Source: an uncultured Desulfuromonadales bacterium (GTDB lineage: Bacteria; Desulfobacterota; Desulfuromonadia; Geobacterales; CAIOGM01). Taken from it: 35,246 nt of DNA. A program made the position numbers and the translations under genes. The stretch spans positions 1 to 35,246 of the forward strand of contig CAIYUY010000163.1 in assembly GCA_903929485.1 (NCBI GenBank). The letters are read 5' to 3'. Below, one piece after another: positions 14,976-30,829 of this stretch. The notes under the pieces are model-generated. The model was not told where the DNA came from. It searched no databases and was given only the letters and a program-made list of their open reading frames with translations. Every line of letters starts with the position of its first letter. The first letter of the stretch is position 1.

Positions 14976-15131
14976 ACGTTGCGTCTCCTTTGGTTTGTAG
15001 GACGAAGTAAACATCCGCCTGTTGTCACTATTTCCAGCTCCGATACCCTCCTTTCCGCTTCTCATCCAGTAGTGGTCCAAGATCAAACATGAAGCCTGGA
15101 TTTCTTAAGCGATAAATCTCGAACAACGAAC
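14976..15131 (-). promoter_or_regulatory. Long 5' leader of the 985-aa cytochrome with an extra SD-like site
   Basis: From the predicted start of transcription (about 15132) to ATG there are about 157 nt. Within it, AAGCGGAAAGGAG (15048-15060) is a second strong ribosome-site-like sequence 73 nt before the start codon, with no start codon at a usable distance. The same 13-mer occurs in the tetraheme gene leader (21876-21888). Confidence 0.55.
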
Positions 15132-15141
15132 AACGCAGCAA

Positions 15142-15159
15142 CTGCAAGATCGATGCCGT
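15142..15159 (-). promoter_or_regulatory. Sigma-54-type promoter (985-aa cytochrome)
   Basis: On the minus strand CGGCATCGATCTTGCA gives GG (15157-15156), ten bases, GC (15145-15144), matching the -24/-12 consensus TGGCAC-N5-TTGCA. Nearly identical in form to the site at 18021-18034. Confidence 0.75.
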
Positions 15160-15450
15160 CATCCGGCACATTCTCACAGTGCATAGTACCTTCCCGATAA
15201 ATGTTTGTCAATCATTCATCCCTGAAAGCCACCAGTTCCATGATCCCCGTAATTGTTGATGTTCTATTCTCTATCGGCGTCGCAACACTCATCACGAACA
15301 GTTAGCCGGACGACCGGAGGGTATTCTTTCCCGAACCGAGGCAGGCCGGCTACCGTCATATAACGTAATTCCCCAGCACCGGGCTGGTCATTTCACCGAC
15401 CTGCCACTAAAATCGCCCGACAATCATCGCCCCGAAACCGTCCGTGGGAT
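15160..15450. other. Intergenic region with nested inverted repeats, likely activator region
   Basis: No gene is visible in this 291-nt stretch. GGCAGGCCGG (15340-15349) pairs with CCGACCTGCC (15396-15405, one G-T mismatch in RNA), and inside lies a perfect CCAGC-ACCGG-GCTGG hairpin (15373-15387). The block lies 180-250 bp upstream of the -24/-12 promoter, where an enhancer-binding activator would sit. Confidence 0.5.
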
Positions 15451-15452
15451 AT

Positions 15453-15481
15453 AAAAAAAGACCCCGCCTTTTCCGGCGGGG
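15453..15481 (-). terminator. Rho-independent terminator after the 784-aa cytochrome gene
   Basis: Stem CCCCGCC (15462-15468) / GGCGGGG (15475-15481), loop TTTTCC, followed on the minus strand by a run of seven T (15459-15453). Confidence 0.9.
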
Positions 15482-15507
15482 CCTTTGGTCCTGCGCAAAA
15501 AATACTG

Positions 15508-17862
15508 TTACCGGCGCGGTGTGATATAGGCCTGCGCCTTTAACTTGGTGGCTGAATCCACGCCGCTCAGGTTCTGAATCGTGGCGTAAACCGTATTGTT
15601 GTTCGGATTTCCATCATCCAAAAAGTCAATGGTGTCGTAGAGGAGCCGCTTGATGTACACATCGTTGTGAGCCCAGGAACCGCCATCGGCCTGGAGCAGT
15701 TTCAGATTGAAGGCTCCCCCCATGATCTTGGAGCCATGCGTGACCCCGCCAATGACGCGCTGCCAGTTAACGGTTCCGGTGGCGAAGTTCTGCTGAGTCG
15801 GATCGGAAGTCGTAAAGAAGTACGGATAGATATCCTTGTTGTAATAGATCCCCATGGCGCTCAGTTGCGTGGCGATTACCGACATGGCCGCCTTGTAACC
15901 ATCTTTCTGGTTCTGCAGGAATGAGCCGTTGAAGCTGCCGCTGTCATGACAGTAGGTGGCGAAACAGGTGCTGCTGGTAATCGCCTTGATGCTCCCCTGA
16001 CTGGACGATACCGGCGAGAAGAGATGCTTGCGGGCGGAACCGGCCATGTGACACTCGACACAAGGTCCGGTGAAGCTGTCACCCAGGCTTGGATGGGCGA
16101 AGTTGATGGAGCGGTAACTGCTCCAGGAACGGTATTCATAGCCGATCTTGAAGCTCGTGCCGGAAACAGCCTCCTGGTAGAGGAGTCCGGCCGCCCCCAT
16201 GTAGTGTGGGTTGATGAAAGGGACATTCTGCCAAAAACTCCCCGTCGCGCCGACAATTCCCTCCAGGTCGGTTATGTTCGAGCCGGCGCTCTTCCCCGTG
16301 TGGCAGGTGATGCAGATATTGGAATCACCACTGTCCGGGTAGACCTTTCTCCGGATATTTTTCTTGGATTTGAGTGATGAGTAGCCGTAATAGCCGTAGA
16401 CGTTGTACTGGGAACCATCGCCATAGGTATCCACCCCGACCACCCGCCGGTTGTAGGTCGTCCCCGAGTTGGGGTCTTCAAAGGAATTGAACGGAGTGTA
16501 GTGACAAGCCGAGCAGGCGATCATCTCCCGGGAACCGCTCGCCGGCGCGAAAGGGGCGATGTTGCTGAAGTTGCTTGAAACGTACTGGATATAGCCGGTG
16601 GTGGTGTGGCAGCGGACACAATCGTTACCGGTGCTGGTGGCGGGAGTAGCCGGGGCCGCGCTCCCCATGCTCTTGAACTGGTAAGTCACCCAGGTGGGAG
16701 AAGTGGGGTTCCCCTTGCCGGACGCAGCCCAATCGGTGTTGGCGGATAAGACGTCGAAGGTGACATTACCGCTCACATCCAGGGACTGATGGCAGTTGAC
16801 GCATTGGGTGTTGGGGTTAACATACTGGGCCGACGTGGTGGAGTTGGCAAAGTGCGGGGTTGGAAGATTCCCGTTGAAAAGGGTTGAATGGGGATCGTGG
16901 CACTCAACGCACCTGCTGCCGCCGGTGTAGGCGGTGTGAAACGGGAAACCGGCCGGCGGCCAGGAAAGGCTGACGCTGTTGCCGGGAACGTGACAGGTGG
17001 AGCACGCGGTTACCGGCTGACGACCCACAACGGAGGAGCGCGGCGGCAAGATCGAACCGTTAGGATAAATATGTCCGCCCGGATAATCAGGATACTGATC
17101 TTTAGTCCCCAGATGACATCTCTGGCAACTGGGCCCTTGGGGCTTGAGGTTATGATTTGACAAGTCGTACGCGGCGACGACCAATGGCGAACGGGCCGTG
17201 TGACAGGTCTTGCAATATGCGGAGTCGGGACTGTAGGGGATGGTTACCGTGACCGAAGTCATGTTCACCGGACTGCTGACCCCTCCCGCCGTGGCGACCA
17301 GTGAGACGGAATAGACCCCGGCGCTGTCGGCATAGAACCCGGTTATCTGGCTGTCGGGAGCCGTCAGGTGTGCATTGGAGTCATTCACCGACCAGTGATA
17401 GGTGAAGACGAGTCCGGAAATCACCGGAAAACTTGTGGCGGAACCCGCGAGATTAACCTGGTGAGCAATCCCCACTCCGCTGAGGTTCTGGGAGGGACCC
17501 GCGACCGCGGTCACCGTTGTGGGAACGGTTTGGGGGCCGAAGACCACCGTCAGGCTCAGGGTTGGTGCGCCGGCTTTAGGGGTGACCCTAAAGCTGCCGT
17601 CAGCCGCCAGCGCGGAAACATCGGCGTTAATGGCGGGCGCTATGGACACCGACTTTACCACGTTTCCGGCGTTTGGTTTGGTTTTGAAGGTCATGTAGGT
17701 ACTGGGCGTTGTGACTAATGCATACGTAGCGTATCCCTGATCAGGAGACGGCAAAATACCGCCACCAACAACAGCTCGGTTAAAGTTGATTCGGTAGGTA
17801 GTGGCCATGACGACGCTGGGGAGGAGGAGCAACAAGAGTACCAGTGAAATTTTTTTAACCAT
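15508..17862 (-). CDS. Large secreted multiheme c-type cytochrome (784 aa, 9-10 hemes)
   Basis: Start chosen at ATG 17862 (AAAGGAG ribosome site, signal peptide 1-20, VVMA|TT). Two N-terminal beta-rich domains (about 22-110 and 112-210) precede the heme part. CX2CH sites have first Cys at 217, 246, 287, 318, 354, 415, 450, 517 and 601, and a tenth, CFATYCH (CX4CH), is at 633. The C-terminal 145 residues are heme-free and carry GSWAHNDVYIKRLLYDTIDFLDD, a motif also seen in degenerate form at the end of the 813-aa protein (GSWWLHG..LLFDSLD). It is the most diverged of the three large paralogues: the beta domains keep the layout but little sequence. Likely secreted or surface-exposed; role in extracellular electron transfer is inferred. 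Confidence 0.9.
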   Translation of the reverse strand: MVKKISLVLLLLLLPSVVMATTYRINFNRAVVGGGILPSPDQGYATYALVTTPSTYMTFKTKPNAGNVVKSVSIAPAINADVSALAADGSFRVTPKAGAPTLSLTVVFGPQTVPTTVTAVAGPSQNLSGVGIAHQVNLAGSATSFPVISGLVFTYHWSVNDSNAHLTAPDSQITGFYADSAGVYSVSLVATAGGVSSPVNMTSVTVTIPYSPDSAYCKTCHTARSPLVVAAYDLSNHNLKPQGPSCQRCHLGTKDQYPDYPGGHIYPNGSILPPRSSVVGRQPVTACSTCHVPGNSVSLSWPPAGFPFHTAYTGGSRCVECHDPHSTLFNGNLPTPHFANSTTSAQYVNPNTQCVNCHQSLDVSGNVTFDVLSANTDWAASGKGNPTSPTWVTYQFKSMGSAAPATPATSTGNDCVRCHTTTGYIQYVSSNFSNIAPFAPASGSREMIACSACHYTPFNSFEDPNSGTTYNRRVVGVDTYGDGSQYNVYGYYGYSSLKSKKNIRRKVYPDSGDSNICITCHTGKSAGSNITDLEGIVGATGSFWQNVPFINPHYMGAAGLLYQEAVSGTSFKIGYEYRSWSSYRSINFAHPSLGDSFTGPCVECHMAGSARKHLFSPVSSSQGSIKAITSSTCFATYCHDSGSFNGSFLQNQKDGYKAAMSVIATQLSAMGIYYNKDIYPYFFTTSDPTQQNFATGTVNWQRVIGGVTHGSKIMGGAFNLKLLQADGGSWAHNDVYIKRLLYDTIDFLDDGNPNNNTVYATIQNLSGVDSATKLKAQAYITPRR

Positions 17863-17932
17863 TGATCTTCTCCTTTGTGGCACTAGAATGGATTTATCCC
17901 TAAACGGAAGAGACGGTGTCGAGGCGGAAATC

Positions 17933-17941
17933 CTCCTTTTT
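17933..17941 (-). promoter_or_regulatory. Extra SD-like AAAAGGAGG in the 784-aa cytochrome leader
   Basis: This perfect ribosome-site-like run lies 71 nt before the true start (which has its own AAAGGAG), with no start codon at a usable distance. It has the same placement as in two other cytochrome leaders. Confidence 0.45.
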
Positions 17942-18018
17942 ATGTTATTTTCATACTGCATAAAAGTGACCCGACATGGTTCCGAAAGATCAGATGAGTG
18001 GAGGACGACATGATACCT

Positions 18019-18036
18019 ATGCAAGATTAATGCCGA
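18019..18036 (-). promoter_or_regulatory. Sigma-54-type promoter (784-aa cytochrome)
   Basis: Minus strand CGGCATTAATCTTGCAT: GG at 18034-18033, ten bases, GC at 18022-18021. It fits TGGCAC-N5-TTGCA at all but two positions. Predicted leader about 147 nt. The 260 nt between it and the previous terminator hold no gene. Confidence 0.75.
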
Positions 18037-18297
18037 TACATAGAAAAAAACAGATCCAACCACTCAAACCCTCCATCATAAGCGAACCATCGCTCGGAGA
18101 GCGGGAAAAAGCGCTGCGACATGATGAAAAACAACATGTCAGGATTCCCACCGGATTAACTCCGTTTTCAGGGAAATTTTCCACGCCCCCGGAGAAAAAA
18201 CTTTGTTTCCGAATGACGCCATTTCACGGCATGAAATCAAAGGTACCGCCATCTCGCCAGACGAGCCGGTGAAAGGAGTGTTCAGAAAAGCAGCCAT

Positions 18298-18326
18298 AAA
18301 AAAACCCCGCCTCTTGCGAGGCGGGG
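18298..18326 (-). terminator. Rho-independent terminator after the 813-aa cytochrome gene
   Basis: Perfect 9-bp stem CCCCGCCTC (18305-18313) / GAGGCGGGG (18318-18326) with loop TTGC, then seven T on the minus strand (18304-18298). Confidence 0.93.
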
Positions 18327-18355
18327 CATGTTCAAGGATGAACCCTGACGATCAG

Positions 18356-20797
18356 TTAGTAGGGGAACGGTCGAGTGCTGCCGGCGTTACCGAACCAGGT
18401 CAGGGTTCTGCTCACCTGACTAACCGTCAGATAGGTGGGATTGGCTGCCTGGAAGGCGACCAGGTCGGCCACTGAACCGGTGATATGGCCATGCAACGCC
18501 ACGTCCAGGGAGTCAAAGAGAAGCTGTTGTGACTGGAGCGGCCCATGAAGCCACCATGAACCGGTAAGAGTACTGTTCAGGAGCGCGCCCTGGTACAGGC
18601 TGCGGTTATCGTACCTGAAATCGCCGGATAAAGCGGAGGATCCGACATAGAATCGCACGGGGTTGGTGGCGCCGGCCGCCAGACTCTTGTCGGCTGCGTA
18701 CCCAAGGTTAACCCGCAGGACGCGCTTGACCGAAGACTGGGCGCCAAAAGCCCCCGCCTTGGAGAGTGCAAGAGATGCGTTGCCAAAGGGAATAAAACTA
18801 TTCTGAGGATGGCACTTTTCGCAGGTTGTTTTCGTCATCTCGGTGGTGGAACTGCTCCAGTTCTTCCAGGCGGCAAAGGTATGCCCCCCCTTGCTGCTGC
18901 TCTTATCCGCGCTCAGATGACAACCGGCGCAGGGTCCACCGGTGCCGGTGTCCGGATAACCGGGAAGAACCGAACCGATCTTGTTGTGAGTACCAAGGTC
19001 GTAGACCATGCCGGCGAATTTATAGACAAACCCGCTGTTGGTGAGTACCGGTACTACCGCGATGGTAGTGCCGTGACTCCCCACCGCGCCGATATTGGCG
19101 CGAACCACTGAGTAGCTGGAGAAGGTGTTCAGCTGTTTCACCAGGTTTCCGGAAATCTGGGTCTTGCTCTTGCCGCCATGGCTATGGCAAGAGACGCAAA
19201 CGTCGGATTTACCAAGGCTTGAGACTGAAAAAGTGGGGAGAACGAACTTACCGACTGTTCCCGACCGCTGGTTGGAGGCGGTGGAGTAACCGAGATAAGG
19301 GGTCCAGGGAGCAACGGTCCGGACGGTCCCTACCGTATCGGTGTGGCAAGCGCCACAAGCCAAAACTTCCTTGGCCTTATCCGTGGTCGGATCCTGCCAG
19401 GCAGTGACCGTGACATAATTGGAGGTTACAAAGTTGACAAAGCCGGTCTTGGTGTGGCAGCGGACACACTCCATCCGGCCGGCAACCGGATTGTTATTGG
19501 AAAGATTGTTCTGGTAATTCAGACCGGAGTCGGCGGAAACCCCCATGGAGCCCATGCCGTTGGGAGCTAGCGCGGCTGTTCCCGTCCAGACCATATGGGT
19601 AGTGGAGGTATTGGCGTGGGCATTATCTTTCCACTGAGTCAGCTGCATGGTCAGGTCGCCATGTGGCTCATGACAGCCGGAACAGCTGTTATTGGGAGTG
19701 AAATACTGAGCATTGCGGTTCGGCCCGGCGGTATAGGCCGCGAAGGCGGGATTGTTCCAGTTGCCGGGAACGTTGGCGACGGCATAATGATTCGCTCTCT
19801 GAATCCCCACCGGGGGAGTATCCGATTGACCGCTGTGGCAGTTGAGACAGGAGACGCCGGCCAGGGTTGAGTGGGGGTTATGGCATTCGACGCACTTGAC
19901 ACCGGTCTGGAGGGTAACGGGATTGGTGTAATAGGTCGTACTCTTGTGTTTGGAACTGTTCCAGGCAATTCCCTGGGGAGTGGCGGAGTGACAGGTGTAG
20001 CAGACCGCATGATCCTTGTTTCCCATGTACGCGTTGGCAAGATCCGACTGATGACAGCCGTCGCAGCTGGAGATTGCGCTGTTGATATGCGGTGACGAAT
20101 TATACAGGGAAACGATGAGCGGATCCCGTCCGTTATGGCACGCAATGCAGACGGTTGAGGAACCCAACCCGGGGGCTAGAAACGTGGCCATGACCGAGTA
20201 GGGAGCGCTGGGAACACCGGCCACGGTAACGACCAGAGAGAGGGTATAGACACCATAGGCATCCACATACAGTTGGGCAGTGGGAGTGGTGATTCCGGTA
20301 AGGTGTGCGCCGGTGGCGGGATATACCGACCAGGCATACGTTACGGGGGTGCTGGGGCTTCCTACCGGACTCACGGTATAGGAACTGGTAAAGCTCGCTG
20401 CATTGGCGATGCCGAGCCCTTGCACATTAAGGTTTGCGGGGAGAACAGAAGGAGAGACAATTCCCGGCGCCAGAGACAAGGTAACAGTGACAGTGCTGTC
20501 GGCGGTCACGTTAGAGACAGAAAAGGTACCGTCAGCCGCAACGGCCGTGGCGATCGCCCCACCCGTAACGGAAGGAGGGTTCACAACCGCGTAGCCGAAA
20601 TTTTTCGATACCTTGAAGTTCGCGGTACCGGTAGTGCCGACGACTTTCGCGTAGCCCATACCGGTGTTGGGGACAGGTGTCACCGAACCGGAGGTAGCGG
20701 GGCTCGCCTTGTAGTAGAGTTTATACGTCGTTGCCGCCAACACCATGGTCGGCAGCAGGAGCATCATCATGACAACCAATGCGATTCTTTTCAACAT
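18356..20797 (-). CDS. Large secreted 11-heme c-type cytochrome (813 aa)
   Basis: Start chosen at ATG 20797: AAAGGAGACGC precedes it, as in the 985-aa gene, and a signal peptide follows (1-21, MVLA|AT). Beta-rich domain 22-110, Ig/PKD-like domain 111-208 (PVGSPSTPVTYAWSV), then 11 CX2CH sites with first Cys at 217, 245, 266, 302, 317, 372, 444, 481, 534, 623 and 659. The last 150 residues are heme-free. The N-terminal 260 residues align closely with the 985-aa protein, and several sites are followed by CHNPH or CHEPH, giving extra His as distal ligands. I see no clear promoter of its own; it may depend on read-through from the tetraheme gene. Likely surface or extracellular electron carrier. 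Confidence 0.92.
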   Translation of the reverse strand: MLKRIALVVMMMLLLPTMVLAATTYKLYYKASPATSGSVTPVPNTGMGYAKVVGTTGTANFKVSKNFGYAVVNPPSVTGGAIATAVAADGTFSVSNVTADSTVTVTLSLAPGIVSPSVLPANLNVQGLGIANAASFTSSYTVSPVGSPSTPVTYAWSVYPATGAHLTGITTPTAQLYVDAYGVYTLSLVVTVAGVPSAPYSVMATFLAPGLGSSTVCIACHNGRDPLIVSLYNSSPHINSAISSCDGCHQSDLANAYMGNKDHAVCYTCHSATPQGIAWNSSKHKSTTYYTNPVTLQTGVKCVECHNPHSTLAGVSCLNCHSGQSDTPPVGIQRANHYAVANVPGNWNNPAFAAYTAGPNRNAQYFTPNNSCSGCHEPHGDLTMQLTQWKDNAHANTSTTHMVWTGTAALAPNGMGSMGVSADSGLNYQNNLSNNNPVAGRMECVRCHTKTGFVNFVTSNYVTVTAWQDPTTDKAKEVLACGACHTDTVGTVRTVAPWTPYLGYSTASNQRSGTVGKFVLPTFSVSSLGKSDVCVSCHSHGGKSKTQISGNLVKQLNTFSSYSVVRANIGAVGSHGTTIAVVPVLTNSGFVYKFAGMVYDLGTHNKIGSVLPGYPDTGTGGPCAGCHLSADKSSSKGGHTFAAWKNWSSSTTEMTKTTCEKCHPQNSFIPFGNASLALSKAGAFGAQSSVKRVLRVNLGYAADKSLAAGATNPVRFYVGSSALSGDFRYDNRSLYQGALLNSTLTGSWWLHGPLQSQQLLFDSLDVALHGHITGSVADLVAFQAANPTYLTVSQVSRTLTWFGNAGSTRPFPY

Positions 20798-20892
20798 ACG
20801 TGGCGTCTCCTTTATACGTTGGGATAACTCATCAAAAGTATCCACCCCTGACCGATTTCCTTCTTGCACCAATAAACGTCAATTAATCATGT

Positions 20893-20924
20893 AAAAAAAC
20901 GGCCTTCCTTTTCAGGGAGGCCGT
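20893..20924 (-). terminator. Rho-independent terminator after the tetraheme gene
   Basis: Stem ACGGCCT (20899-20905) / AGGCCGT (20918-20924), partly extended inward, followed on the minus strand by seven T (20899-20893). Confidence 0.85.
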
Positions 20925-20952
20925 ATTCCAAGTTAGACAATTTAACTGATGA

Positions 20953-21798
20953 TTAGAAGGTACCAGCCTGGGCGTGACAGGTGACACAAAGAGCCGAACC
21001 TGCCTGGGGGGCCAGGGTAAAGTAGAACTGCGCGGTACCGGTCCCCGGGCCTTCGCTGGCGGGGGTCAGTTTGTTGTGAACATCGTGGCAGGTGGCGCAG
21101 GTCATGTACCCTGTGGAGCCATCACCCATGGTGTCATACAACCTGTTGGCGACGGTGATCGTCGTGCCGGCGTTAACATACTTTTTATCGGGAAGACCTG
21201 TCTGGAACTCACCCAGAGTTTTGGTTGCATCGGTAAGGAACTGTTTGAAGTCGAAGCCGATAGGGTGGTTGCGAGCCATGCTGAAAGTACCGACGCCTGC
21301 CGCGCCGATGCCGATATTGTTCCCGCCGAAATCATTAGCGCCGCCGATCTTGACGCTCCCCTTATTATCGGTGAAGGCCGCCACGCCGGTGGCGGGCTGG
21401 TAGTAGGAATCCACGGCGATAACACCGTCATGGCAGCTCATGCAAAGACGGCTCGGTCCGATGAGGGTATCATCGGCGCGCAGACCATCCGTGCGTGCGT
21501 TGAAAACTGGGTTGGCGTAGGCATCGTAGTAGTTGAGGTCAACGGCGTGGGCCCAGAGGGGAGTATACTCGGGCGCATTGGGAATTCCCGCCAGCATGTC
21601 GGGGGTGAGCGAATGATGCGGAGTGTGGCAGCCGGCGCAGATACGGGTCTCGCTGGGGTGGAGGGTGGACCCTTTGCCATTCAGATAATTTCCGATGTCA
21701 TGGGACGTGCCGAGGATGCCCGGGCCGGCGAGTGCGGCAGTGGCGCTCAAGGCGGTGATTGCTACGATGGTGATGAGACTGGTCAACTTGCTTTTCAT
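20953..21798 (-). CDS. Secreted tetraheme c-type cytochrome
   Basis: 281 aa; ATG 21798 with AAAGGAG. Signal peptide 1-24 (ALA|G). Four CX2CH sites at 54, 119, 234 and 271 in the arrangement SHD..CAGCHTPHH, LCMSCHDG, NHPIGFDF, CATCHDVHN, LCVTCH. The mature part has seven further His besides the four in the motifs, enough for bis-His ligation. The same four-heme layout makes up the first 220 residues of the 594-aa cytochrome (SPHN..CIFCHTPHH, LCLSCHDG, THPISM, CTACHNAHN, LCTACH), so the two share an ancestor. Length and four hemes recall the filament-forming OmcE type of Geobacter, but I could not compare sequences. Monocistronic by its own -24/-12 promoter and terminator. Confidence 0.92.
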   Translation of the reverse strand: MKSKLTSLITIVAITALSATAALAGPGILGTSHDIGNYLNGKGSTLHPSETRICAGCHTPHHSLTPDMLAGIPNAPEYTPLWAHAVDLNYYDAYANPVFNARTDGLRADDTLIGPSRLCMSCHDGVIAVDSYYQPATGVAAFTDNKGSVKIGGANDFGGNNIGIGAAGVGTFSMARNHPIGFDFKQFLTDATKTLGEFQTGLPDKKYVNAGTTITVANRLYDTMGDGSTGYMTCATCHDVHNKLTPASEGPGTGTAQFYFTLAPQAGSALCVTCHAQAGTF

Positions 21799-21946
21799 CG
21801 AGTTTCTCCTTTCAATGGTGTTTTACCGACTGGGTTCATGACGACTCTACATAACTTAAAATCGCTGCCGTACATCTCCTTTCCGCTTTTTATGCGCTGG
21901 TTTTATGTCTGCACTCCTTGGGATCATGGTCATGCCGCCAACGTTT
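21799..21946 (-). promoter_or_regulatory. Long 5' leader of the tetraheme cytochrome
   Basis: About 149 nt from predicted start of transcription to ATG. It contains AAGCGGAAAGGAG (21876-21888), the same 13-mer as in the 985-aa gene leader, 78 nt before the start codon. Confidence 0.55.
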
Positions 21947-21956
21947 TGTTGATTCA

Positions 21957-21974
21957 ATGCACTTTTGATGCCGG
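21957..21974 (-). promoter_or_regulatory. Sigma-54-type promoter (tetraheme cytochrome)
   Basis: Minus strand CCGGCATCAAAAGTGCAT: GG at 21972-21971, ten bases, GC at 21960-21959. The -12 part is GTGC rather than TTGC, so this is the weakest of the four on the -12 side. Confidence 0.65.
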
Positions 21975-22304
21975 TTATTCATAAAAACTGGAAATATTCC
22001 AATTCGCGATTAATCCTCGCTTTTCCACCGGCGCCCTCCCCCATATCATTTCACCAACCAACTGAAATTGTTGATTTTTACGAGGTATCCCCGCCATATA
22101 CCAGCTGCGGGGAGCCAATCCGCCACGTACCGACGGCAGAATTGTTTGGCAATATAACAGTTATATAGCGATACTGCTAGTTACAAATTGCGTCAAAGCA
22201 CGGATTATTATTCAGCCGGCCTCCCCACCCTCAGAAGACCGCCAAATGACTTGACCACCTAGCGAATTGACGGAGTCCGCCCCGTGGAATAGGGCTCGTC
22301 TACC
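21975..22304. other. Intergenic region with palindromes
   Basis: No gene is visible in these 330 nt. It is AT-richer than its surroundings and holds a perfect palindrome ATATAACAGTTATAT (22152-22166) and a stem TCCCCGC / GCGGGGA (22088-22094 / 22107-22113, 12-nt loop). Both lie 115-210 bp upstream of the tetraheme -24/-12 promoter and could be activator sites. No terminator with a T-run is seen after the 594-aa cytochrome gene. Confidence 0.5.
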
Positions 22305-24089
22305 TTAATAACTATGAGGACCGGCCACGCTATGGCACCCGACGGCAAGAGTGCCGCAACTGCGTAAACCGGGACCACCGGAACCATTGTACAGGGCGCT
22401 CAACCCGGCCCGGTTCTTGTCAAAATTTATAAGGTGGTCATTAGCGCCCGGGGTAGCCGCGCCGGCAGCCGTGGAGATACCGTGAGGATCATGACAGACG
22501 GAGCAGGCCACACCTTTATTGTAGTGTGACGCATGAAGAGCCGTCGTTCCCCCCGCGGTAAAGCCGGAGGCTGTCGTCATGACAAAGGTAGATACGTTAT
22601 GACAGCGGGAACAAAGATCGTAGTTCAAGGTTCCGTCACCAACATCGTAGGAGTTCTTGAAGAGCATGGGATAGGCGGAACCGTGCGGCTCATGGCAATC
22701 GCTGCAGAAGATCTTCTGGTCGTTCTGATACGACGTTTTCAAACTATTGTAGACGGCAGTTCCACCGGCGTAGCGGCGCGGCAGCAACTCCGAAACCGGA
22801 TGTCTTGAAATAGTGGAATTGAACCGGTTCTGCTCCCGGTAATCGGTGATGACCCGGCTGGGGCGGGAAAGAGACGAGAGGAAGGTCACGTCACTGCCGT
22901 TCGTCCCGGCATGGCAACGATAGCAGACCTGGTATTCGTAAATAGCGGGGTTGACAACCTGAAGGTTCGAATCCACGCCCCTGACACCGCGCAGGGCATC
23001 GCTTATGGCCGGCGCGAGAAGAGTAGAACCCAGGGGGACATTGGCATAACCGGACTGATGGGGATTGTGGCAGTCGACGCACTCCACATGCTTGGATGGT
23101 GGAGGAAAAGTCTCATTCACCGCATGGGTGCTGGGAGGAGCCAGATCATGGCGATACGTCAAGGTCATGGCCGCGGCGATATTAACTCGGTAATTGCTGC
23201 TGTCGTTGTGACAGGTGAGAATACAGTTGCTGTTGACGGGGTTGGAGCCGATATTAATCGGATTAGCATTAATTTTACTGAGCTTGAGCAGATCAATGGC
23301 GGTTTCGTTGTGGTGTGATTTGTGACAGTTCCCGCAGCCGTTGGCGCTGACGATTCCGCCAACAGACGCATTGAACGTACCGCCGCTCTTGTGCGCGGCG
23401 CTGCCGTCCCAGCCGGCCTTGTTGTGGCATGCGGTACAGAGAGGCGAACCCAAGCTGTTGTCCAGTACAAGAAAATTTCCGTACTGATTGTTGTGGGCGT
23501 TATGACAGGCAGTGCATTCCACTACATTTTCCACCAGTTTGATACGCTTGTCCAGCGTTACGGGGTCAACGTATTCCGGAGTGGAGAGACCATCGAAATA
23601 AGACATGGAGATCGGGTGGGTGGTGGAGAGGTCACTCCCCAGATACGAATCATAGGCGTGATTCATTGAGTGAAGCGCAGCATCAAGGAGAAATCCGCCA
23701 TTAAGCACCCCCAACGCGATAGTGCCGTCATGACAGCTCAGGCAAAGCCGCGAGGAACCGGTAGGGAGCCCCGGCTTATTTTTGATGCTGGGAGAATCGT
23801 AAGGGGTATAAGTACTGACATTGGGTAAATCACGGCTCCAGAGTGGAGCGACGACCTCCGGATACTCCGGGACACTCCTGTCAACGGTGGCGTGATGCGG
23901 AGTGTGGCAGAAGATACAGACCCGTGTTTCCCTAACGGAGCTGTATTCAACCTTTCCCGTGGAGGAGACGGAAAGATTATGCGGCGAGTCAAGGATTGAC
24001 GTGGACGCTCCTCCACCGTATGAAGGGATCAACAGTCCGACGGCCATGAAAGCAATGGCGAAAAAGCGGTGGGATGTTTTTGCTATCAT
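22305..24089 (-). CDS. Multiheme c-type cytochrome, 10 canonical plus 2 unusual sites (594 aa)
   Basis: Start chosen at ATG 24089, placed 5 nt after AGGTGA; a GTG at 24098 overlapping the previous stop is the alternative. Signal peptide about 1-28. CX2CH sites at 58, 116, 192, 218, 252, 337, 389, 462, 493 and 529; CILTCH (CX3CH) at 289 and a last CGTLAVGCH (CX6CH) at 578. About 12 hemes, the number found in several Geobacter conduit cytochromes. Residues 30-222 match the separate tetraheme protein. It is the last gene of the conduit operon, 4-nt overlap or close coupling with the NHL gene before it. There is no lipobox, so it is either periplasmic or exported past the outer membrane; side of the membrane not decided. 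Confidence 0.9.
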   Translation of the reverse strand: MIAKTSHRFFAIAFMAVGLLIPSYGGGASTSILDSPHNLSVSSTGKVEYSSVRETRVCIFCHTPHHATVDRSVPEYPEVVAPLWSRDLPNVSTYTPYDSPSIKNKPGLPTGSSRLCLSCHDGTIALGVLNGGFLLDAALHSMNHAYDSYLGSDLSTTHPISMSYFDGLSTPEYVDPVTLDKRIKLVENVVECTACHNAHNNQYGNFLVLDNSLGSPLCTACHNKAGWDGSAAHKSGGTFNASVGGIVSANGCGNCHKSHHNETAIDLLKLSKINANPINIGSNPVNSNCILTCHNDSSNYRVNIAAAMTLTYRHDLAPPSTHAVNETFPPPSKHVECVDCHNPHQSGYANVPLGSTLLAPAISDALRGVRGVDSNLQVVNPAIYEYQVCYRCHAGTNGSDVTFLSSLSRPSRVITDYREQNRFNSTISRHPVSELLPRRYAGGTAVYNSLKTSYQNDQKIFCSDCHEPHGSAYPMLFKNSYDVGDGTLNYDLCSRCHNVSTFVMTTASGFTAGGTTALHASHYNKGVACSVCHDPHGISTAAGAATPGANDHLINFDKNRAGLSALYNGSGGPGLRSCGTLAVGCHSVAGPHSY

Positions 24090-24094
24090 GATCT

Positions 24095-25165
24095 TCACCT
24101 GCCTGAAGGCATCGACGCTACGGATAAAGCGGCGGGTTGCCGCTGTCGCCCATGGTACTGAAACATCTGAATCCGGTTGTTATAGGAATCGGCCACGTAA
24201 ATGGTGTCTTTCCCGTCGATGAAGAGTCCCGACGGCATCCAGAACTCCCCCGGTCGTGAACCGCGGCTGCCGAACGCCATGAGAAGCCTGCCGGATGGAT
24301 CGAAAATCTGCACGGCGTCCTGAAGAGAATCAACCACGTAAATGTTCCCGTCACTATCAACCGCCACCCCCTTGGGCTTGTTGAAGGCGCCGGAAGAATC
24401 TCCCGATGAACCAAAAACAGTGATGAACTCTCCCGTGGCGGAGAGAGTCTGAACCCGAAAATTCAGGGCATCGGTGACGATGAGTCGACCTGAGTGATCC
24501 AGAGCCAGGTCGGTGGGGTGGTTGAACTCTCCAGGGCCATCGCCCAGCAGGCCGAATTCAAATTTACGCACTCCCTCCCGGTCGAAGACAACGATCTTAT
24601 GATTGGCGGTGTCGGTGACGTAGATCTCCCCCGTCCGGGGGGCATAAACGATCCCGGTAGGGCGGGTAATAACCCCGACAATGAACGGCTCAAGGAACTC
24701 GCCACCGGGAGTATGGCGAAAGACCGTCCCCGAGGCGGAGTCGGTGACATAGATCGTCCCCTTGCCGTCACCGGTGATCCCGATGGGGCTTAACAGCGGC
24801 GCCTTTGCGGAACCGGTGAGACGGCGATACACCCCATCCTTCTTGTCATAGAAATGGACGCAACCGGCGCCCGTGTCGGCCAGATAGATACGCCCCTCAC
24901 CGTCGGCGTGAACACCATAGGGGCGAACAATACCGTTGAACTCTTCACCGGTGATGACCTCCGCAAGGCGTTTCCAAAAACCTTTGCCGATTTCCAACTC
25001 GTCCGGGCCATGAAATTCCTTCAGCCACTCTATCCGCGCCTGTTGGGGGGGAGGAGGCCAGAGGAGGATTACTCCCGGAGGAACCGGTGACGGCCGACCG
25101 GAGGCGCATCCACAAAGGGTAAGGAGAGCCACTACAGGGAGCAGGCGGCGCAACAGATGAATCAT
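24095..25165 (-). CDS. NHL-repeat lipoprotein 2 (six-bladed propeller)
   Basis: 356 aa. Lipobox TLCGC, Cys20. After a Pro-rich stretch (WPPPP, 36-40) and a RIEWLKEF helix, six NHL blades can be read from their third strands: IYLADT (93), IYVTDS (138), IYVTDT (181), LIVTDA (228), IYVVDS (276), IYVADS (322). NHL propellers bind proteins or other ligands; no catalytic motif is seen. Starts 21 nt after the porin gene, and its end is coupled to the 594-aa cytochrome. It shares its N-terminal plan (PPPP, then R-V/I-x-F/W-L) with the other NHL protein at 28016-29263, so the two are paralogues flanking the porin. Likely role: docking or assembly of the conduit (inference). NHL proteins are also found beside other Geobacter surface cytochrome genes. 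Confidence 0.9.
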   Translation of the reverse strand: MIHLLRRLLPVVALLTLCGCASGRPSPVPPGVILLWPPPPQQARIEWLKEFHGPDELEIGKGFWKRLAEVITGEEFNGIVRPYGVHADGEGRIYLADTGAGCVHFYDKKDGVYRRLTGSAKAPLLSPIGITGDGKGTIYVTDSASGTVFRHTPGGEFLEPFIVGVITRPTGIVYAPRTGEIYVTDTANHKIVVFDREGVRKFEFGLLGDGPGEFNHPTDLALDHSGRLIVTDALNFRVQTLSATGEFITVFGSSGDSSGAFNKPKGVAVDSDGNIYVVDSLQDAVQIFDPSGRLLMAFGSRGSRPGEFWMPSGLFIDGKDTIYVADSYNNRIQMFQYHGRQRQPAALSVASMPSGR

Positions 25166-25186
25166 GAACTTTATCCCCGTTCACCA

Positions 25187-27235
25187 TCAGAAGTAGCGAC
25201 GAAGCAGCAACCGGACGGTAGTGTCGTTCTGGGCGGAAGCGGACAGCCACAGCCAGTTTGTGGAGGCATCCAGGACCAGATAAAACTTGCCCAGTTTCAT
25301 CTGGTAATTCATCGTGCCGTTGATCACATCCCGGTCAATGGAACTCCCGCGAGTCATGAGATAGTTGAGTGAGAGTCGGAACATGCCGTTACGCAGAAGC
25401 GGCCGGGCATAGGTAGTCTGTACCGAAAGGAGATTGTCCGTGCCGCTGGTCGCGGCAACCATCGAACCTCCGAACCGATACCACGAATAGGTGTCGACGA
25501 CCGAGGCGGTTACAACATTCACTCCGAAAGGGGGGGGAGTAAGCGCCCATCTCCCCTGCACGGAGTCGCGGCGATCATTGTCGCTCTCCACACGACTGTA
25601 CTCAACCGCCAGGAAATTACTCGGGACTCTCATCTCTCCACCAATCCTGAGACTACTCTGGGAGCTGAGATAAAGCATATCGGAACGGCCGGAGATCAGA
25701 TTCTGGGAGATGTCATTATAATAGGCGAAAAGTCTGTACCTGTTTTCAAAGAGTGAGAGATTGGCGTTGGTGGCAAAGGTCGTCGTGGAAAATGAGCTGG
25801 TGGGATCAACGAGATACTGGTACGTCACGGTCACTGCATCGCCTGCCTTGAGATGAGAACTTGCGACGTTTATATCCAGGTAGGTGAAAGAGCCGTGAGT
25901 AACAACCGTATAATCGACTATATTCGAATACACGACCGGCCCGATGGAGACTATCGGGATGAAGGAACCGTCAACGTTCCCATTGGCCAGCTGATTCTGC
26001 GGGTAATTGAGAGAAAGCGTCATTTTTTCATTATTTGCGATCTGTACCGCCGAGGTCAGGTCGCGATCGGTGACCCCGTACCGCTGGGAGACCTGCAACT
26101 GCAGTGTACTGGCGCGGGGAAGATTTTTGGTGTATCCCAGCGAGCCCCCTCCCGAAATAGTGCCGGTGCTGCCGGTGTTATAATCGCTCTTCGTCCCCGC
26201 TACATCCAGGTGTGTGCTGAGACTGTCAAACAACTTGTGATTCACCCATGCCGAGCCGGTATTGGAGGTGGTTGACTGGCTGATGCTCTTCCCCCCCCCA
26301 TACTCGGAACTGTTGAACGTGTAGGCGACGGCGCTCTGCAACGCTCTCCCGAAATCAAGGAAAGCAGATTCGCTCAAGTTGCACGACCGACTGCTGAAGA
26401 GACCGGAACTGTTGTCAAACGTGACCACGGATTGAACTCTTTTATTATGGTAGGAGCGAAAGTCCCAGGTGAGAGAGTTATTCAGGGTGAGAATCAGGTT
26501 GTCCATGGAGTAATTCGTGGCGTAATAACTGTTTTTCCCCTGGGAATTCACGGTGGTAGAGGAAGAGTTATCGGACTGATTATAGTTGAGAGTCAGGGTT
26601 GTGTAGCTGTACTTACCGGCCTTGTTGGCGCTCTGAAGAGTGAACAGATGATATTTTTGAGACCAGCTGTCATCACCCGAGCTGCTGTCGGAGCCGGACC
26701 ATGAATAGAGCAACTGAGTCGGAAGATACGCGTTACGGATGGTGACTCCGACGCCATAGGTCTCGATTGTCTGATTATAACCGGCGCTGAAATCCTGCTG
26801 TATCCACTGCTGTTCCCGTTGGGCGAAAAAAGTAACGGGAAGCAGCTTTTTTTCGAGTATTTTACCGTTAATATTGTAATTCAGATCCAGATTATTGTAA
26901 TTGCTCCCCGACCCGTCCCCCCGTGAAACCATGTTCATGTCGTATTTCAGATACAGAGATGCGGAACCGTGAAGCAGCCGGGGATCATAGACGGCATAGT
27001 CGGTGGAAACTGAGTAAGCCGGTGTGACGGCATTACGATTATTCGTGATGGAGCTGTCCGCTCCCCCCCCCTGTCCATTGTGCGTATACCCGCTCCCCGC
27101 GTAAAGATACTGCACCTCGGCGTATTGACGCACATTTCCGTACATAAAAATAGGCATCTCTTGGGCGGCGCCGGGAGAGACAGAGCCAAGAAGCGAAAGG
27201 AGCAGCAATGCGATGATCAGGAATCGAGGCGTCAT
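25187..27235 (-). CDS. Outer-membrane beta-barrel of a porin-cytochrome conduit
   Basis: 682 aa. Signal peptide about 1-24 (PGAAQ), then alternating polar/aromatic strands throughout, rich in Ser, Asn, Tyr and Thr, with no Cys near hemes and a final Phe (LLLRRYF), the outer-membrane insertion signal. Length and composition suit a barrel of 20 or more strands, as in the OmbB/ExtB/MtrB-type porins, though sequence is too divergent to name. It is set between a pentaheme lipoprotein and, one gene on, a roughly 12-heme cytochrome; this neighbourhood is the main evidence for a conduit. The ribosome site is weak (AGGTAA, 14 nt away) and the gene starts 11 nt after the cytochrome stop, so translational coupling is likely. 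Confidence 0.85.
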   Translation of the reverse strand: MTPRFLIIALLLLSLLGSVSPGAAQEMPIFMYGNVRQYAEVQYLYAGSGYTHNGQGGGADSSITNNRNAVTPAYSVSTDYAVYDPRLLHGSASLYLKYDMNMVSRGDGSGSNYNNLDLNYNINGKILEKKLLPVTFFAQREQQWIQQDFSAGYNQTIETYGVGVTIRNAYLPTQLLYSWSGSDSSSGDDSWSQKYHLFTLQSANKAGKYSYTTLTLNYNQSDNSSSTTVNSQGKNSYYATNYSMDNLILTLNNSLTWDFRSYHNKRVQSVVTFDNSSGLFSSRSCNLSESAFLDFGRALQSAVAYTFNSSEYGGGKSISQSTTSNTGSAWVNHKLFDSLSTHLDVAGTKSDYNTGSTGTISGGGSLGYTKNLPRASTLQLQVSQRYGVTDRDLTSAVQIANNEKMTLSLNYPQNQLANGNVDGSFIPIVSIGPVVYSNIVDYTVVTHGSFTYLDINVASSHLKAGDAVTVTYQYLVDPTSSFSTTTFATNANLSLFENRYRLFAYYNDISQNLISGRSDMLYLSSQSSLRIGGEMRVPSNFLAVEYSRVESDNDRRDSVQGRWALTPPPFGVNVVTASVVDTYSWYRFGGSMVAATSGTDNLLSVQTTYARPLLRNGMFRLSLNYLMTRGSSIDRDVINGTMNYQMKLGKFYLVLDASTNWLWLSASAQNDTTVRLLLRRYF

Positions 27236-27246
27236 GAATTTGGCGA

Positions 27247-28035
27247 TTACCTGAGGAAATAACGTGCAGCCCCTTTATGGGGGTTATGGCATTCGGGACA
27301 AGCGATCTCGGCCTTTGCCGACCGATCGTGCATCCGTTTTGCCAGACGAGGCTCCTGATGGCATTTGGAACAGAGCGTGGGTCCGTCGGACTTCAAGAGG
27401 AACCTGTTCACCGAACTGTGCGGATCATGACAGGCTAGACAGTTACCGGCGGCTGCAGGTGCGTGAACGGAAGCCCCCTTGGCGATGGTGTCATGACAGG
27501 TGACGCAGAGCTCTCCCAGCGGGACAATGAAGCCGCTTTCAGTGGTCTTGTTGTGACAGTAATCACAATGCTTATCCCGATACGGCGGGTGCTCCGAAGC
27601 CCCTTTTTTCACGGAACCATTGCCGCTACCGTTACTCCCCCCATTGGCGTGTCCGTTGGGATGCCCGTTGCCGCCGCCGTTGCCGTTGCCGCCGCCGTTG
27701 CCGTTGCCGTTGCCGTTGCCGCCGCCGTTGCTGACGCCGCCGTTACTGACGCCGTTGCTGCCGCCGTTACTGACGCCGTTGCTGCTACTTACGCCGTTAC
27801 TCTTCTTGGGGAGCTGACGCGACTCCAACCAGTTAGCGCAGTATGTATCCGGAGGAGGCGGGGCGGGAACCCCGTCGAAGATGTACGAACTAAGGTTGTC
27901 CCTGATCGCGGGAGTACACCCCACGCAGAGAGATAACAAGATAGTTGTCAGGCAGCGCCCGCCCCAAAGAGGGATTTTGCGGCGAGGCGTTATAACAGTC
28001 CCACGCTGATCCTGCTCAAGGCTTACGCGTTTCAA
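27247..28035 (-). CDS. Pentaheme c-type lipoprotein with Gly/Asn tether
   Basis: 262 aa from TTG 28035, supported by AGGAGGAG 7 nt upstream; it overlaps the end of the NHL gene by 20 nt. Lipoprotein signal with Cys40 (LCVGC; Cys at -3 is unusual). Residues 41-78 contain YIFDGVPAPPPPDTYCANW. Residues 79-140 are almost only Gly, Asn and Ser, a flexible tether. Five CX2CH sites follow at 157, 177, 199, 222 and 246, with PH after two of them. A five-heme lipoprotein beside a porin matches the ExtC/ExtF-like part of Geobacter Ext conduits. The tether would let the heme domain reach away from the membrane. Whether it faces the periplasm or the outside is not visible. Confidence 0.9.
   Translation of the reverse strand: MKRVSLEQDQRGTVITPRRKIPLWGGRCLTTILLSLCVGCTPAIRDNLSSYIFDGVPAPPPPDTYCANWLESRQLPKKSNGVSSSNGVSNGGSNGVSNGGVSNGGGNGNGNGNGGGNGNGGGNGHPNGHANGGSNGSGNGSVKKGASEHPPYRDKHCDYCHNKTTESGFIVPLGELCVTCHDTIAKGASVHAPAAAGNCLACHDPHSSVNRFLLKSDGPTLCSKCHQEPRLAKRMHDRSAKAEIACPECHNPHKGAARYFLR
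27660..27798. repeat. In-frame GC-rich micro/minisatellite coding the Gly/Asn tether
   Basis: Tandem GCCGTT/GCCGCC hexamers and longer units of the type CCGTTACTGACG fill this part of the pentaheme gene. All units are multiples of 3, so copy-number change alters tether length and keeps the frame. Confidence 0.85.
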
Positions 28036-29263
28036 GAAGATCTCCTCCTACTGCCGCGTTAGAGCTGCCTGTACCCGCCGAACTCTTGCTTGAGGGGATC
28101 GGAACCGCTTTCCCGGGTGGGATACTAACGGGAGCATTCCCCTGGGGCGAGGTAACGGGTTGTTTGCCCCCTTCCTTCAGGTGGCCCAAGCCATAGACCG
28201 AGACAGCATCGTGGCCGAACTGGTTGGCCACATAGATAAGCTCTTCCAATTGGAAAGAGTGGTCGGTGAATTTGCTGAAGTATTCCAAGTTGTTTTTACT
28301 CAGCCAGATGCTGGTGGGGACGTTCAGTGAACCAGCGGGCAAACCCGGATTGCCGAAGTACATGAGAAGGCGCCCTTCGTCGTTGAATATCTGTACATTC
28401 TGAAGGCCCGAATCAACAACAAAGATCCTCCCCTGGGCGTCCACGCTTATTCCCTTGGGACGGGCGAATTCACCGAATCTGTCGCCCAGCCTGCCGAAGT
28501 TCAGCAGCACATGCCCATCCCTATCTATTTTTATGACATGCCCATCCATGTTGGTAACATATAAAACCCCCTTATCATCCAGCGTAATACCGATGGGACC
28601 GGCTAGATCGCCGTCCTGACCACCAGTATCGAAGCTCCTGATCAGGGTGCCGCTGTTACGGTCCAACACCTTTATGTTTGCCTCTTCGATATCAACCCAA
28701 TAGATATGGTCGTGATCAACGGCTATGGCCGACGGCTTTTTCACGAGATCCTTGCCCAAGGATTGAACGAAATCGCCGTCGGCGGTGAAGACCAAAATTT
28801 CCTTGCGTTTGGTATCCACCACGTAGAGCCTGCCGTTCTCATCAACCGCCAGCCAGGTCGGCTTTTTCATCTGTCCCTGGCCGCCGTTTCCTCTCAGGGG
28901 GGCGAAGGTCTTACGGTTCAGATCAATGCGGAAGATGGTGTTGGTAGCGGTGTCGGTTACATAAACAATTCCCTGGTAATCAACCACCGAGTAAGGCTTC
29001 TGGATGTTCAGCAATCGATCCGGCTGGTCAGTACCGGAAATAAATTTCTCCAGCCAGCTCTTTTCCGCTTCGATAATTTTCGAGCTATTGAAGCTGACCA
29101 GAAACTGGACGCGCGGCTCATTGGGAGGCGGGGGGAAAAATACGGGGAGAGCTTTTCTCGTGGCGGCGGTGTTGGAACAGCCCGCCAGCAGGTTGCCCCC
29201 AAGGAGGAGCAGCAACAGCAGTGAAAAAAAACGTCTTGAAAAAGAGATGACAACGGACGGCAT
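28016..29263 (-). CDS. NHL-repeat lipoprotein 1
   Basis: 415 aa from ATG 29263, which overlaps the stop of the preceding cytochrome gene by one base (TGATG). Lipobox LLAGC, Cys29. Then FFPPPP and RVQFLVSF, followed by NHL blades visible at VYVTDT, LYVVDT, IYWVDI, LYVTNM, IFVVDS and a last YVANQF, about residues 75-365; the C-terminal 45 residues are a Pro/Ser-rich tail. Paralogue of the NHL lipoprotein at 24095-25165. It lies between the 459-aa and the pentaheme cytochromes, so it is part of the conduit operon. No enzyme signature; a structural or docking role in the conduit is inferred. Confidence 0.9.
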   Translation of the reverse strand: MPSVVISFSRRFFSLLLLLLLGGNLLAGCSNTAATRKALPVFFPPPPNEPRVQFLVSFNSSKIIEAEKSWLEKFISGTDQPDRLLNIQKPYSVVDYQGIVYVTDTATNTIFRIDLNRKTFAPLRGNGGQGQMKKPTWLAVDENGRLYVVDTKRKEILVFTADGDFVQSLGKDLVKKPSAIAVDHDHIYWVDIEEANIKVLDRNSGTLIRSFDTGGQDGDLAGPIGITLDDKGVLYVTNMDGHVIKIDRDGHVLLNFGRLGDRFGEFARPKGISVDAQGRIFVVDSGLQNVQIFNDEGRLLMYFGNPGLPAGSLNVPTSIWLSKNNLEYFSKFTDHSFQLEELIYVANQFGHDAVSVYGLGHLKEGGKQPVTSPQGNAPVSIPPGKAVPIPSSKSSAGTGSSNAAVGGDLLETRKP

Positions 29264-30642
29264 CAGTGCGCTCCTTGACGTGCGGAAGGGGGCTGGCCGG
29301 ATCCGGCCGGGCCCGCGGGATGGTACTCCACCGGGCTGAGACGGTCGTAGGAGAGGCTCTTGTGACAACCGGAGGCGCATCGCCCTCCTGTTTCCGTTAT
29401 CTCCAACTTGAAGGGAATCTTCCACTCCCCGAATGTCGATCCAACCGAATTGGTCAACTTCGGACCATTGGCAGCGTGGGGTTCGTGGCAAGCGCGACAG
29501 CTTCTCCCCTTGAGGTTGTTCACCACATGAACATAATGAAGATTCCGGTTGCCGTTACGGAACTTGGTGTAGATGGTGGTATCGGCAAAACGAAGCAGAT
29601 TTTTTTCATGGCATTTAAGGCAAAGAGCATACGCCCCTTCCGTGTACGGCGCGTAGTAGGTGGCGGGATACGGAGCCGTCAGCAGTCTGAAATTATCGGT
29701 GCCATGGGGGTCGTGACATCCGGTGCATCGTCCCTGGGCGATGGGGCCGTGAATCTGTGTTTTTCCCTTCAATTCATCGGCGATATTTTTCAGCGGCGCC
29801 AATTTGTTGTCTCCATGACAGCCGAGACAGAGCGTCTTTTCGTCCACGGGAAGGAGTTTTTTGAAGTTTGAGGCGTGAGGTGAATGACATGCGCCGCAAC
29901 CGCGCTCTTGGGTAAGAGGCTTGTGCAACCGCTTGACCTTGACCAACTGGCTTTCTATGGTTTTATGACATTCAAAGCAGAGTTCAGGCATCTTCCTGAC
30001 GCCGAGATTAAGATTATTGGAACTGTGCGGATCATGGCATGATGTACAACCCGAGACCTCAATGGGTGGATGGATAACCTTGGACGTTGACATCAGGTTT
30101 TTGATATCGTCGTGGCAGCTCAGGCAGAGGGAATTTACCGGTCCTTTCAGAAGGGTTTTCGCAACAGTCCCATGAGGATCGTGGCAGGAAGAGCAGGATC
30201 CCGTGGCCACCGGCGCATGAACATGCTCCTTGGTAAAAGCCCCCTTGTCATGGCAGCTGAGGCAAAGCCCGCTGAGATCTTCACTATTTTTCAGGAGGAA
30301 CCGGCCGTCGGCGCCGTGGGGCTGATGGCAGGCGAGGCACTCACCCTCCTTTACGGGGAGGTGCGACACCGGCCCCTTACCGGGAGAATCATGGCAGGTG
30401 GCGCAGAGTTTTCCTCCCTGGAGAGCAAGGGTGAAACTCTTCTCCCCTGCAACGGGGTGCCGCGGAGAGTTTTGCTTATGACAGGGAGCACACTCCCCGG
30501 ACTTCACCGGGTCATGCGGTCTTTTAACGGAGGTCACCGTGATATGACAGGTTCCCGTCAGGCAACCACCGGCTGCCGCGCAGAGGGATGGAAGTAAAAA
30601 AAAGAGGGCGACTACCGGCGCCAGGATGTGGCTGCGTAGCAT
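29263..30642 (-). CDS. Multiheme c-type cytochrome, doubled-CXXCH type (13 canonical plus 2 unusual sites)
   Basis: 459 aa from ATG 30642 (AAGGA ribosome site; signal peptide about 1-24). CX2CH sites have first Cys at 51, 80, 102, 127, 150, 173, 199, 222, 249, 272, 306, 341 and 382. A CX4CH (CLTGTCH) at 27 and a CX3CH (CASGCH) at 422 bracket them. Most sites come in pairs, one followed by a D/Q/S-PH, the doubled CXXCH motif; linear arrays of this kind act as electron wires. Lysine-rich, no lipobox, so soluble periplasmic (or secreted). It is the first gene of the conduit operon, about 160 nt downstream of a -24/-12 promoter. Most likely the periplasmic input to the porin. Confidence 0.93.
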   Translation of the reverse strand: MLRSHILAPVVALFFLLPSLCAAAGGCLTGTCHITVTSVKRPHDPVKSGECAPCHKQNSPRHPVAGEKSFTLALQGGKLCATCHDSPGKGPVSHLPVKEGECLACHQPHGADGRFLLKNSEDLSGLCLSCHDKGAFTKEHVHAPVATGSCSSCHDPHGTVAKTLLKGPVNSLCLSCHDDIKNLMSTSKVIHPPIEVSGCTSCHDPHSSNNLNLGVRKMPELCFECHKTIESQLVKVKRLHKPLTQERGCGACHSPHASNFKKLLPVDEKTLCLGCHGDNKLAPLKNIADELKGKTQIHGPIAQGRCTGCHDPHGTDNFRLLTAPYPATYYAPYTEGAYALCLKCHEKNLLRFADTTIYTKFRNGNRNLHYVHVVNNLKGRSCRACHEPHAANGPKLTNSVGSTFGEWKIPFKLEITETGGRCASGCHKSLSYDRLSPVEYHPAGPAGSGQPPSARQGAH

Positions 30643-30753
30643 AAGTGGCGATTCCTTGAATGGTGAAAAAGCCTGCGAGGTCGCGGCGTGTATCTGCATG
30701 TGCGCTGCTTCTTCTACCATATAACCCTGCCGAATAAAAGTTAATAATGTCCT

Positions 30754-30767
30754 CTTCCCTCGGGAAG
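30754..30767 (-). other. Hairpin in the leader of the conduit operon
   Basis: CTTCC-CGAG-GGAAG on the minus strand, 5-bp arms and a tetraloop, lies mid-leader about 112 nt before the ATG. No T-run follows, so it is not a terminator. Confidence 0.5.
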
Positions 30768-30811
30768 CACGGGGATCTTGGCCGTTCCAGGGGAGACGAC
30801 TCTTTTTGCGG

Positions 30812-30829
30812 ATGCAGGGATCGTGCCAA
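30812..30829 (-). promoter_or_regulatory. Sigma-54-type promoter (conduit operon)
   Basis: Minus strand TGGCACGATCCCTGCAT: GG at 30827-30826, ten bases, GC at 30815-30814. It is the best match of the four to TGGCACG-N4-TTGCA, and it lies only 24 nt after the trmL stop. Leader length about 160 nt. Confidence 0.8.

Follow-up and report, generated by a model that had tools for sequence, protein, structure and literature searches.

To our knowledge, little is understood of how bacteria come to make conductive cytochrome nanowires. The window, that is, the whole stretch of 35,246 nucleotides that was analysed, constitutes an entire contig from the draft genome (5.36 Mb) of a Geobacter relative. 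Among named genomes, those of uncultured Geobacteraceae come closest to it. Its minus strand carries ten cytochrome-related genes, namely those of the conduit operon A-F and the genes G, H, I and J. The analysis of their upstream DNA suggests that an OmcE-type nanowire gene and the neighbouring large cytochromes are probably under the control of RpoN (sigma-54).

The conduit operon (22305-30642; this and all the window features located below lie on the minus strand) comprises six genes. The cytochromes A, C and F contain 13, 5 and 10 hemes, respectively, and B and E are the NHL proteins. D, for which a Pfam search returned no match, is a candidate outer-membrane barrel on the grounds of its position. 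Three large cytochromes, H (18356-20797), I (15508-17862) and J (12018-14975), carry 11, 9 and 10 hemes, respectively. H has no sigma-54 site of its own here, whereas a relative of H in L061 has one that scores 15.9 bits. Terminator-like hairpins are found 3' of H (18304-18327) and of I (15457-15486), and therefore I and J need their own promoters. The gap between G and H (20798-20952) also contains a terminator-like hairpin, read by eye.

The remaining gene, G (20953-21798), encodes a tetraheme cytochrome. It is assigned to the OmcE family because a 40-relative profile of G matches the OmcE filament protein (PDB 7tfs) over the whole length with E=1.1e-57, and because its family presents four CXXCH motifs and four further invariant histidines. 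The assignment was made via this profile match; the AlphaFold model was too poor for a structure search. The similarity is distant, and G is longer than OmcE (281 versus 232 residues). The G. sulfurreducens OmcE used as a query gave no match at E<=1e-80 in the genomes searched. On the basis of this kinship, G may form filaments.

With regard to the promoters, the initial annotation had reported four GG-N10-GC sites on the minus strand, and all of them are present. They were scored with a weight matrix whose values were chosen by hand after a published consensus, mrNrYTGGCACG-N4-TTGCWNNw (as cited in PMC2725144). The conduit operon site (30813-30829; TTGGCACGATCCCTGCA) is the best of the window with 18.3 bits, followed by those of I (18020-18036; TCGGCATTAATCTTGCA; 14.0 bits), J (15143-15159; ACGGCATCGATCTTGCA; 12.1 bits) and G (21958-21974; CCGGCATCAAAAGTGCA; 9.8 bits). 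The GG at -24, the GC at -12 and the ten bases between them are found at all four sites, and the G site is weak when taken alone, with GTGC where the consensus has TTGC. The comparison with shuffled DNA, also proposed in the initial annotation, gave a divided answer. Over the entire window the loose GG-N10-GC pattern shows no excess (88 matches versus 91 expected), whereas the matrix, at a threshold of at least 9.5 bits, retrieves just these four sites from 3.5 kb of intergenic DNA searched on both strands, with about 0.7 expected, and each of them is correctly oriented and precedes cytochrome genes.

The G and J sites are also conserved within the genus. The G site is retained in all four species and is stronger in the three congeners, which reach 14.4, 18.0 and 15.0 bits at the position aligned with it. 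The J site is retained in L057, the sole congener with closely aligned J upstream DNA, and the I site has no ortholog comparison, since in the nearest species the contig stops inside gene I. The weight matrix had been proposed for related genomes as well, and there it shows an association with OmcE. Of 80 OmcE-family genes from 20 genera of the order, 62 are preceded, at no more than 400 nt, by a site scoring 12 bits or more, against 0/80 on the antisense strand and 1.4% in shuffles. A strong example is the site of the cultured relative Oryzomonas japonica (L070), with 16.2 bits. At least one OmcE-family gene bearing a site is found in 18 of the 20 genera, and a matrix-free pattern agrees with the matrix (49 versus 1 for the OmcE-family genes). 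A control family of decaheme cytochromes has the site in 0/20 members, a weak control since some of these are perhaps inside operons. Furthermore, in a cross-phylum set, some members of which are 11-heme proteins, the site precedes 31/49 genes versus 3/49 for the antisense strand.

The conduit operon presents a different picture. Its site is found in three of the four species, being retained in L058 and L059 and absent from L056, and just 7/40 conduit homologs across the order have one, which speaks against its proposed membership of a single regulon with the other units. RpoN control of this operon is still likely. By informal inspection, many homologs of conduit A across the order have a same-strand OmcE-family gene no further than about 15 kb away, which suggests a conserved nanowire-conduit locus.

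Upstream of the promoters of I and J, at about 190-240 bp, lies a 16-bp element, TCSGTGAAATRRCSGA, which is frequently paired, with copies 21 or 32 bp apart. The heptamer GTGAAAT was initially spotted upstream of I, J and their relatives, and is the top 7-mer in the OmcE upstream DNA of other genera (17 occurrences versus 2.9 expected). As the motif search was seeded by eye from this genus, the evidence consists of the unseeded ranking and the held-out scores. Both the ranking and the training of an enhancer matrix used 55 non-redundant OmcE upstream regions, with the genus of the window left out. The matrix exceeds the 99% null (12.8 bits) in 36/55 training sequences and in 7/9 non-conduit promoters of the held-out genus. 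The candidate J enhancer (15384-15399; TCGGTGAAATGACCAG) scores 19.0 bits and has a second copy 32 bp on (15352-15367; TACGTTATATGACGGT; 13.5 bits), the pair occupying the same positions in L057, and the candidate I enhancer (18215-18230; GCCGTGAAATGGCGTC) scores 17.8 bits. A block upstream of G that is conserved with L056 (22157-22204) holds two weak enhancer-like sites, again 32 bp apart, which reach 10.7-11.9 bits in the window and L056, and G scored 11.4 bits in the held-out test. At the conduit promoter the matrix gives 3.2 bits and finds no copy. Second copies are seen 21 or 32 bp off in most promoters of the genus, and the exact 32-bp spacing occurs in 3/7 versus 0.003 in flank shuffles (p=0.003, which is the floor for 300 shuffles, the spacing having been noticed prior to testing). 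In other phyla the element was not significant. TCSGTGAAATRRCSGA is a likely activator enhancer.

Across the genome of the window, the enhancer precedes a sigma-54 site in the right order, at a spacing of 180-226 nt, at I, J, an 18-heme cytochrome gene on C152 and a bacteriohemerythrin gene on C47. One extra pair is weak (10.6 bits) and points in the opposite direction. About 0.9 such pairs are expected by chance, and the list is incomplete because two fixed patterns were used. The gene on C152 (L065 5149) encodes a relative of I and J, and its sigma-54 site, of 11.0 bits, has the enhancer 199 nt upstream. The bacteriohemerythrin gene (L361 8006-9300) has the same enhancer 203 nt from a 15.9-bit site, and is possibly co-regulated with the cytochromes. 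The genome encodes one RpoN and about 20 bacterial enhancer-binding proteins (bEBPs), counted as strong Sigma54_activat matches. In the search for a linked activator, bEBP motifs were found in just one of the loci examined, and none is linked here. The bEBP near the hemerythrin on C47 was considered as a candidate; however, its neighbour is a divergent aldehyde dehydrogenase gene, which is its more likely target.

RpoN control of G, I and J, a prediction from sequence, finds good support in the genus orthologs, in the OmcE family of the whole order and in the matching upstream element. The best explanation, to which we assign a probability of roughly 0.85, is that these are RpoN promoters activated by a bEBP via the upstream element at I and J, and possibly at G. 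RpoN polymerase would occupy the -24/-12 site of the OmcE-type gene, I and J and, less firmly, that of the conduit operon, and would be opened by a bEBP. This activator would bind helically phased TCSGTGAAATRRCSGA copies about 190-240 bp upstream of -24 at I and J, possibly also at G, so that cells may turn on parts of the extracellular electron-transfer apparatus together, on a signal. The idea of one regulon for all four units is only partly supported, since the activator site is strong at I and J, but the copies at G are weak and the conduit has none. An activator common to I and J is likely and could possibly extend to G, and for the conduit it is unsupported. For the wider picture, in which one orthologous bEBP would act on helically phased TCSGTGAAATRRCSGA pairs ahead of nanowire and companion cytochrome genes in an order-wide OmcE sigma-54 regulon and sigma-54 dependence would reach into other phyla, we consider the odds to be even.

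A different account starts from the leaders. It holds that a single RpoN regulon comprises all four units and that their equal leaders of 150-160 nt serve a common post-transcriptional control, for example through CsrA and GGA motifs. Measured from an assumed transcript start, 12 nt past the GC, to the chosen start codon, the predicted leaders are 160 nt for the conduit operon (30643-30802), 149 nt for G (21799-21947), 147 nt for I (17863-18009) and 157 nt for J (14976-15132), which reproduces the earlier values of 161, 149, 147 and 157 nt to within one nucleotide. The chance of four leaders falling within 13 nt is about 0.006 when drawn from order-wide OmcE leaders and 0.013 from same-genome sigma-54 leaders, in a post hoc test that takes the starts as given. 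The even spacing is thus unlikely by chance, as had been claimed, but it does not extend across the order, where OmcE leaders range from 29 to 295 nt with a median of 111 (start codons were picked by a rule favouring a signal peptide and a ribosome site, which adds noise to these lengths). In the genus, lengths of 140-159 nt are kept by the leaders of the conduit, G and J, whereas the leaders of other sigma-54 cytochrome genes measure 81-129 nt, among them 129, 106 and 118. Leader control would find some backing in the effect of CsrA on electron transfer in G. sulfurreducens (PMC11934962) and in the enrichment of GGA in the leaders (17 versus 9.4, p=0.006 in mononucleotide shuffles), although no stable hairpins accompany these motifs. 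Folding gave no advantage over shuffles for any of the four leaders, they share no structure, and Rfam gives no match at gathering scores. A riboswitch or another known leader RNA was rejected on this Rfam result, with just weak matches to terminator-containing sRNA families, and so was a small leader ORF, as orthologs do not share a start codon suitably spaced from the internal AAGGAG that precedes it. This AAGGAG is absent from the conduit leader, the unit that also has no enhancer. The whole 5.36 Mb genome holds exactly two copies of the 13-mer AAGCGGAAAGGAG, at 15048-15060 in the J leader and at 21876-21888 in the G leader, about 85-90 nt ahead of the start codon. The 13-mer is conserved in L056 and L057; it is a real trait of two leaders and not a design common to the four. 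The common post-transcriptional design put forward in the initial annotation accordingly loses its footing, and there remain for it the GGA-rich make-up and the 13-mer of two leaders. The equal lengths have the look of a local feature and not of a mechanism, leader length has no demonstrated part in the mechanism proposed above, and we hold this account as a whole to be quite unlikely.

It may also be that some units, chiefly J, are mostly transcribed by sigma-70, with the -24/-12 site in a secondary role. A sigma-70-like TTGACA-N17-TACTAT box (15211-15183), which precedes the J site by 24 bp and is conserved in L057, fits this idea; however, J is the only one of the four units with such a box, and its -24/-12 site is conserved too and is accompanied by a strong paired enhancer, so that we regard predominant sigma-70 transcription as unlikely. 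That the sites are chance matches chosen by eye would agree with a loose pattern as frequent in the window as in shuffles, but the conservation, the order-wide enrichment, the controls and the paired enhancer motif all weigh against it, and for G and J it is already contradicted. As an account of all the sites chance is highly improbable, though it may explain the conduit site alone.

If sigma-54 control holds true, the production of nanowires would require an ATP-driven activator and therefore a dedicated signal. The conserved promoter type and the candidate enhancer provide a direct handle, as they predict the class of the activator and offer a DNA bait. Moreover, promoter and enhancer together mark candidate co-regulated cytochromes in uncultured genomes. 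In the freely accessible main texts searched, no description of sigma-54 control of OmcE genes was found, and such control is provisionally regarded as new.

Several known systems resemble this locus in part. In its gene content, the conduit operon A-F is similar to the porin-cytochrome conduits (Pcc) of Geobacter in having a candidate outer-membrane barrel surrounded by multiheme cytochromes, and differs from them by its two NHL-repeat proteins. In G. sulfurreducens, the RpoN regulon covers pili and also, on expression evidence, cytochromes such as omcB (Leang 2009, PMC2725144). That study describes the same promoter consensus in a member of the same order; its main text does not mention omcE (GSU0618) by name, and the part considered here describes no common enhancer of nanowire genes. 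A further likeness is to PilR-pilA of Geobacter, in which a bEBP and RpoN act on extracellular appendage genes (PMC2725144). Whereas the activator gene adjoins its target in PilR-pilA and no activator is linked to the locus in the window, here too a predicted bEBP would work with RpoN, on the gene of a putative extracellular nanowire.
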